From the NCBI RefSeq assembly GCF_024345475.1, contig NZ_JAGQBE010000012.1, positions 1 to 57,643 of the forward strand: a stretch of 57,643 bases of DNA, written 5' to 3'. The first letter of the stretch is position 1; each line of letters begins with the position of its first letter. The position numbers and the translations under genes are program-made. Of the stretch, positions 6,159 through 14,879 are shown in pieces. The notes under the pieces are model-generated. The model was given only the letters and a program-made list of their open reading frames with translations. It was not told the DNA's origin and did no database searches. Origin of the DNA: Cyanobium sp. T1B-Tous. GTDB lineage: Bacteria; Cyanobacteriota; Cyanobacteriia; PCC-6307; Cyanobiaceae.

Positions 6159-6486
<328 letters not shown>

Positions 6487-6573
6487 GCCGAGTTTCACGG
6501 CATTGCCGATCTCCCCCAGAAATGGCTCGGTTGATCGCTGGCCCCGGATGGGGGTGAGCTGAAAGCTTCAAAA

Positions 6574-6590
6574 CTGTACGACCTGTACAG
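6574..6590. repeat. TGTACA-type repeat pair, site 1
   Basis: The sequence reads ctgtacgacctgtacag: TGTACG at 6575-6580 and TGTACA at 6584-6589, 9 bases apart start to start. The same spacing occurs at 9517-9543 and 14034-14077. It lies between the convergent ends of the broken protease gene and rfbD. It could be a decayed operator or a dispersed repeat. Confidence 0.5.
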
Positions 6591-9516: not shown

Positions 9517-9543
9517 GAATTCTGTACAGGCTGTACAGAATTC
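9517..9543. repeat. 27-bp perfect palindrome with two TGTACA motifs, site 2
   Basis: The arms gaattctgtacag and ctgtacagaattc surround a single central G. TGTACA occurs at 9523 and 9532, 9 bases apart. Twenty bases (aattctgtacaggctgtaca) are identical to the array before the antitoxin-toxin gene at 14 kb. It lies between the convergent ends of the acetyltransferase and ribH. It has no T-run, so it is not a classical terminator; an operator or relic of one is more likely. Confidence 0.7.
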
Positions 9544-14033: not shown

Positions 14034-14077
14034 CAATTCTGTACAGGCTGTACAACTTGTACAGGTTGTACAGAATC
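14034..14077. promoter_or_regulatory. Four-copy TGTACA array, 9-bp period, candidate operator (site 3)
   Basis: TGTACA occurs at 14040, 14049, 14058 and 14067, exactly 9 bases apart, with spacers ggc, act and ggt, inside an overall near-palindrome (aattc... to ...gaatc). It ends 15 bases before the ATG of the fused antitoxin-toxin gene. Phd/YefM-type antitoxins commonly bind palindromic repeats over their own promoter, so an autoregulatory operator is the natural reading. The spacing just under one helical turn would place dimers almost on one face. Confidence 0.65.
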
Positions 14078-14087
14078 TGGAAGGCAC

Positions 14088-14879
14088 ATGCGCTCGCCCC
14101 AGCCCGACTCCGCCACCACCCCGGAGGCCTCCTTTGGCGTGGAGGCGGCGCGGCGGCGGCTGCCAGAGCTGCTGGAGCGGGCTGCGGCCGGCGAGCGCAT
14201 CGTGATCCGGCGGCACCGCACCCCCATGGCCGCCCTGGTGCCCCTGGCCGGGCAGGCGCCCACCGATCCGAGCCTGCGGCAGCGGCAGGTACAGAGCCTG
14301 ATGGGTCTGCAGGGCAGCGGCCGTGGCTGCTGGGACCCCAACCAACGGCATCCGGCCCGCCCAGCCCCGGCAGCCCCCGCCTTTGTGCAGCCCGTTCAGC
14401 ACCTGGGGCCCCCAGGTGAGGCACAGCGCCAACGCGCCTTCAATCCCCGCCTCCTAGCCCACGGCTCCCGGATCGCCCTCGACAGCACGGCACTGGTGGC
14501 CTTTCTGGCCGACGCCAAGGGCGCCGGCAAGCACCTCGAACCCCTCCTGCAGGGCATTGCGGCGGGGTATTGGATCGGGGTCGTGAGCAGCGTGAGCCTG
14601 ATCCGGGTGCTCGAGGGACCCCTGGCCTGCGGCGATGAGGCCCTGGCCCAGCGCTACACCAAGGCCTTCGAGAACCCGGTCCACTGGCAGTTAGTGCCCG
14701 CCGATGCCGCCATCGCGGCAGCGGCCGTGCGCCTGCGCCGCCAGGAGCCCCAGCTCGACGACAGCGCCGCCATCGAACTGGCCACCGCGATCCAGGCCGG
14801 TGCTGCAGTGCTAGTCACCGACCATCCCGCCCTGGCCCAAACTGGACAGCACCCCGTGCTCAGTGCCCTGCGGGTCTGA
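14088..14879 (+). CDS. Single-chain Phd-type antitoxin fused to PIN-domain (VapC-like) protein
   Basis: Residues 15-55 resemble a Phd/YefM antitoxin DNA-binding domain ('FGVEAARRRLPELLERAAAG', 'RIVIRRHRTPMAALVPL'). Residues 56-125 are a Pro/Gln/Arg-rich linker. Residues 127-250 resemble a PIN ribonuclease fold: 'RIALDSTALVAFLAD' (Asp132), 'SSVSLIRVLEGPL', 'LDDSAAIELATA' (Asp224/225) and 'VLVTDHPAL' (Asp245). In many PIN proteins the second acidic residue would fall near 173, which is Arg here, so catalysis may be lost or use Glu176. The start ATG follows GGAAGG at 14079-14084. It lies 10 bases before holA and may be co-transcribed with it. The fusion could be self-neutralised or a degenerate toxin kept as a regulator. 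Confidence 0.72.
   Translation: MRSPQPDSATTPEASFGVEAARRRLPELLERAAAGERIVIRRHRTPMAALVPLAGQAPTDPSLRQRQVQSLMGLQGSGRGCWDPNQRHPARPAPAAPAFVQPVQHLGPPGEAQRQRAFNPRLLAHGSRIALDSTALVAFLADAKGAGKHLEPLLQGIAAGYWIGVVSSVSLIRVLEGPLACGDEALAQRYTKAFENPVHWQLVPADAAIAAAAVRLRRQEPQLDDSAAIELATAIQAGAAVLVTDHPALAQTGQHPVLSALRV

Follow-up and report, generated by a model that had tools for sequence, protein, structure and literature searches.

Within the 57,643-nucleotide stretch of Cyanobium sp. T1B-Tous DNA analysed here (the window), four TGTACA palindromes follow each other at exact 9-bp steps in front of a gene for a fused Phd-PIN protein. Taken as a whole, the best reading, to which we assign a probability of roughly 0.6, is that an exapted Phd-PIN protein controls its own gene through this array as auto-operator and probably also binds hairpin-forming palindromes dispersed over the genome. 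The parts of this reading differ in strength. Very probably the array serves the fused protein encoded downstream as its auto-operator, and the operator idea is well supported both for phd-pin and for a general class; that the same protein would bind the dispersed sites is a view towards which we lean slightly. The hairpin repeat that carries the operator core is statistically tied to the fused gene. A class of untagged palindromic repeats, for which the partner protein is seldom known, is here connected with one specific candidate DNA-binding protein.

Table 1. Features of the window discussed in the text
Feature	Positions	Strand	Basis
Very probable operator array: four TGTACA units, 9-bp step, spacers GGC/ACT/GGT	14040-14072	+	letters, counts, orthologue conservation
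Larger near-palindrome (CAATTC ... GAATC) enclosing the array	14034-14077	+	letters, RNA fold z -5.7
Single ORF, 263 aa, Phd-PIN fusion	14088-14879	+	ORF, domain profiles, fused orthologues
Phd/YefM-type N-terminal domain, residues 17-53	14136-14246	+	PF02604, TIGR01552, PDB relative 6jqy
PIN-like domain with most catalytic acids replaced, residues 129-245	14472-14822	+	PF01850 E 4e-4, alignments
Palindrome relic within the ORF, inter-domain linker FVQPVQ	14382-14402	+	near-intact in three relatives
Dispersed palindrome of two units, GAATTCTGTACAGGCTGTACAGAATTC; GNAT and lumazine synthase genes converge on it	9517-9543	.	
Decayed dispersed copy CTGTACGACCTGTACAG, past the rmlD 3' end; one mismatch at 6575	6574-6590	.	

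The array and its occurrence beside Phd-domain genes

The exact units occupy positions 14040-14045, 14049-14054, 14058-14063 and 14067-14072, and the array (TCAATTC-TGTACA-GGC-TGTACA-ACT-TGTACA-GGT-TGTACA-GAATCTGGA) ends 15 bases (14073-14087) before the ATG at 14088, which confirms the layout and coordinates given by the sequence-only reading. Its claim of a larger near-palindrome likewise stood (z -5.7 for the fold of a 58-nt strand), as did that of two further places in the window, namely the exact pair at 9523/9532 and the copy at 6575 with one mismatch. The window contains ten TGTACA, whereas dinucleotide shuffles predict 2.0 (none of 100 had as many as 10); for TGTACA-N3-TGTACA with at most two mismatches, the count is five and the expectation 0.17. 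Genome-wide, 23 matches to this core with at most one mismatch were found, compared with none for a reversed control pattern. A sigma-70 consensus promoter was not found in the array region by a search that spans part of the range of cyanobacterial promoters.

The array could alternatively be a product of chance or a short tandem repeat of the satellite type, devoid of function; indeed, unrelated bacteria contain long satellites made up purely of TGTACA units with a 9-bp period (L108:3717-3821, L128:8-100 and L085). Shuffles and the reversed control pattern rule out a chance origin of array and core, and the excess over both in window and genome, together with the fact that orthologues keep the units although their spacers have diverged, leaves this alternative scarcely credible. 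Four TGTACA-like units at 9-bp steps stand upstream of the orthologues in G014, G007, G005, G006, G012 and G166, and two such units in G010, G160, G093 and G024, units and step being kept despite differing spacers in this and other genera. In G013, a degenerate five-unit array was recognised by inspection about 200 bp upstream of the orthologue.

The same geometry was found far outside the family. Among 84,980 prokaryotic species genomes scanned, runs of at least three units with this spacing occur at 118 or more places, compared with 4 to 8 expected by chance on a rough estimate that assumes even base composition. Among the 123 ORFs that start within 60 bp of such arrays, 27 belong to PF02604, from many phyla, and 13 to PF12910 (the latter count possibly overlapping with the former); the 25 families listed for 125 control ORFs, which comprise all families with at least two members, include no Phd family. 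A further eight of the 123 are FMN reductases, in which the array is coding. In three genes of this type (L101:5405-5428, L136:5579-5602 and L095:6338-6361), three TGTACA at 9-bp steps lie within or at the edge of the coding region, probably as a codon coincidence (Cys-x-x-Cys). TGTACA units at 9-bp steps are a signature by which operators of the Phd/YefM type can be found across phyla.

TGTACA is the operator core of YefM and Axe, where the cores lie 12 bp apart from centre to centre (PMC7730913; PMC4803016). The present array resembles YefM-YoeB and Axe-Txe in its palindromic TGTACA core beside a gene of the Phd/YefM type, but theirs are two palindromes at the studied 12-bp distance (PMC7730913) and here there are four at 9 bp, in front of a fused protein. 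The operator suggested from the letters alone is supported by orthologue conservation, by the known YefM/Axe core and by the link with Phd/YefM genes across phyla. The tabulation of genes adjacent to TGTACA-N3-TGTACA, proposed at the same time, was borne out in part: Phd/YefM genes do accompany arrays of three or more units across phyla, but nearly all other local copies lack a Phd neighbour. The sequence-only reading had counted a motif that occurs at random and unlinked to Phd-domain genes as evidence against itself, and locally this is half the case. Nearly all other genomic copies adjoin unrelated genes, which rules out a regulon of Phd genes only.

The fused Phd-PIN gene

The gene is flanked by cobH (reverse strand) and holA, a position that is conserved, with mutS and an aspartate kinase gene nearby. 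Its orthologues share 71-92% identity within the genus and about 45-83% in other genera, and the fusion is likewise a single ORF in orthologues at 52-92% identity. The Phd domain matches PF02604 at E 8e-5, which for this protein is under Pfam's cut-off, though the family was matched in 14 of 14 orthologues and TIGR01552 exceeds its cut-off when the N-terminus is searched alone; the sole PDB relative found by profile is the antitoxin VapB46 (6jqy), and it covers the N-terminus only. PF01850 was found in the PIN part of nine of the 14 orthologues, and a predicted structure was too poor for use (pLDDT 40).

The PIN parts were aligned (MAFFT) with VapC-type PIN proteins encoded beside Phd genes that carry 9-bp arrays, and the catalytic-residue argument is based on this alignment because profile-profile comparison yielded no usable score. 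The first Asp (D132) is kept in all 14 aligned fusions. R, Q or D occurs at the second position, one of A, C, G, R, Q and H at the third, and mostly H at the fourth; two to three of the four catalytic acids are lost, and replacements are present in every one of the 14. This loss makes a working toxin doubtful, and to judge from these residues the PIN part is probably inactive as a nuclease, so that the protein resembles a toxin-antitoxin pair that has been converted into a DNA-binding protein. The earlier label "antitoxin-toxin gene" is accordingly doubtful, given mostly lost PIN acids and one ORF that carries both domains rather than separate antitoxin and toxin genes. The locus is similar to type II pairs of the Phd-PIN kind (VapBC with a Phd-type antitoxin) in joining Phd-type and PIN-type domains, and differs from them in its single ORF, its depleted PIN acids and its conserved cobH-holA position. 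Some two-gene Phd and PIN pairs are also preceded by 9-bp arrays (L064, L083 and L119).

Dispersed two-unit hairpins

About 20 dispersed copies of the two-unit core occur in this genome. Apart from the array itself, two probable coincidences within coding sequence and perhaps a few more, the core matches are enclosed by a palindrome of ~40 bp, roughly GTGTCCTGAATTC-TGTACAGGCTGTACA-GAATTCAGGACAC. The exact 9523/9532 pair forms the centre of a perfect palindrome with 13-bp arms. A decayed antitoxin gene after this site was considered and dropped, because the end of the lumazine synthase gene lies 75 bp beyond it. An apparently frameshifted ORF (6168-6487), which resembles aspartyl proteases (weak PF13975 match), closely precedes the decayed copy at 6575.

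With genes called by a simple GC-pattern caller of our own, the sites of ten genomes of the genus fall between convergent genes in 36 cases, between tandem genes in 50 and between divergent genes in 12, with nine inside genes and 14 at edges; the remaining intergenic regions at these loci gave 6 convergent, 50 tandem and 19 divergent. Gene ends make up 122 of the 196 flanking sides, the sites lying a median of 56 bp past the stop codon. The dispersed copies belong to the 3' ends of genes rather than to promoters, and because they avoid divergent promoters most of them cannot be ordinary repressor operators. The hairpins fold strongly as RNA, and their arms covary beyond what column composition explains (z 5.0 for 59 cluster representatives, z 7.4 when other genera are added), with nothing detected at positions 20-30 from the centre; perfect copies with differing arms include CTCCTGAATTC/GAATTCAGGAG, CTCCCTAATTC/GAATTAGGGAG and GTTTCCCAGTTC/GAACTGGGAAAC. 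This covariation points to a hairpin constraint beyond protein binding.

Many sites are common to orthologous positions and others are wholly missing from sister genomes. Inside genes, the palindrome is read as VQPVQ in two linkers, that of the fusion itself and that of FtsY. The in-frame relic in the fusion is near-intact in G005 and G006 (TTTGTACAACCTGTACAGAAC), has one base changed in G012, and is absent in G024 and G120; the ftsY copy (L007:1490-1530) is present in ten of 16 genomes of the genus. One dispersed copy of G014, between convergent genes, has expanded and now comprises four units, again at 9-bp steps (L193:1495-1527).

Several known classes of element were compared. TTTT follows the hairpins on 10 of 238 sides compared with 9 of 238 in the control, which rules out a canonical intrinsic terminator for lack of a T-tract. 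Like REP elements (GTAG/CGTC-tagged), the copies are foldable palindromes of 20-40 bp between convergent and tandem genes; unlike them, they have an invariant TGTACA-N3-TGTACA core, follow a Phd-domain gene in abundance, and lack an associated Y1 transposase (PF01797) in the five element-rich genomes G000, G010, G014, G007 and G005, so that a REP with a RAYT (Y1) transposase is ruled out. Rfam gave no match except a tRNA, and our literature search returned no description of the element in cyanobacteria.

Link with the gene and competing explanations

Of 151 genomes of the family, 21 have the gene and 130 lack it; their median excess of sites over control is 5 and 0, respectively (p 2e-11). The difference is also found outside the genus (16 vs 129 genomes, p 7e-9) and within those other genera in which the gene occurs (16 vs 13 genomes, p 2e-4); these p-values ignore relatedness, and each gene-bearing genome includes its own operator in the count. 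In a comparison of sisters, 13 sites found in G012 were followed in two genomes with the gene (G005, G006) and two without it (G001, G011). Among the copies retained, the core had no or one mismatch in 10 of 14 where the gene is present and in one of nine where it is absent (p 0.009; mismatch ranks, p 0.003), from a small sample in which G011 is somewhat more diverged. The FtsY core, for example, is exact in G005 and G006, with one mismatch in G012 and two each in G001 and G011. G001 still holds three exact sites without the gene, and G004 and G015 retain gene remnants only, yet 9-14 sites. Such a natural series of gene losses allows repeat and protein to be examined together.

The dispersed copies may instead be REP-like RNA or DNA hairpins at 3' ends, acting in mRNA stabilisation or transcription end, of which the array is one expanded copy, the Phd protein having nothing to do with the dispersed set. 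Their position past stop codons, the covariation of their arms and their strong RNA folds all suit this explanation, as does the occasional expansion of a dispersed copy at the 9-bp step (L193), and REPs elsewhere have the same convergent bias (PMC3733652). However, such hairpins would account neither for the co-occurrence with the Phd-PIN gene and the decay of cores in its absence, nor for a core identical to the Phd operator found across phyla; the missing T-tract excess and Y1 transposase count against them as well, and we consider this explanation unlikely. Even less can be said for the core as a site of another regulator (such as LexA, NtcA or CRP) with only incidental adjacency to phd-pin. 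GTAC-containing palindromes serve several cyanobacterial regulators, but to our knowledge the LexA and NtcA boxes of cyanobacteria are unlike the GTAC-N5-GTAC spacing, and these regulators are, as far as we know, near-universal in the family. Site abundance follows the phd-pin gene and the dispersed sites lie at 3' ends, which renders this option very improbable.

If the array is the auto-operator of the Phd-PIN protein, dimers of the Phd domain would bind the palindromic units, with several dimers lined up next to each other 9 bp apart, and the bound protein would repress its own transcription. Recognition of TGTACA is established in Phd/YefM relatives, and by analogy the array may be bound by the Phd domain of its own protein. 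As each unit is itself palindromic, the array offers alternating dyads, comparable to the alternating palindrome of mazEF, where overlapping dyads likewise provide several registers for the antitoxin, although protein fold and sequence are different there. Roles as a roadblock, as a structural protein or as a factor at mRNA ends are conceivable for Phd-PIN at the 3'-end sites, as is simple titration of the protein. More tentatively, and with rather less confidence, the fusion might have ceased to be an active toxin and now bind throughout the genome, its operator core embedded in arm-covarying 3'-end hairpins and its sites gained and lost together with the gene. On this tentative account, the joint gain and loss would suggest that an addiction-module repressor now serves as a roadblock or chromosome-organising factor with a repeat class of its own.

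A variant hairpin occurs in genus g6 (L284:5708-5722, L289:1487-1501), with the core TGTACA-CAA-TGTACA and arms TTTTCCAGGC or TTTTCCAACC; its spacer is that of the g6 phd-pin operator.
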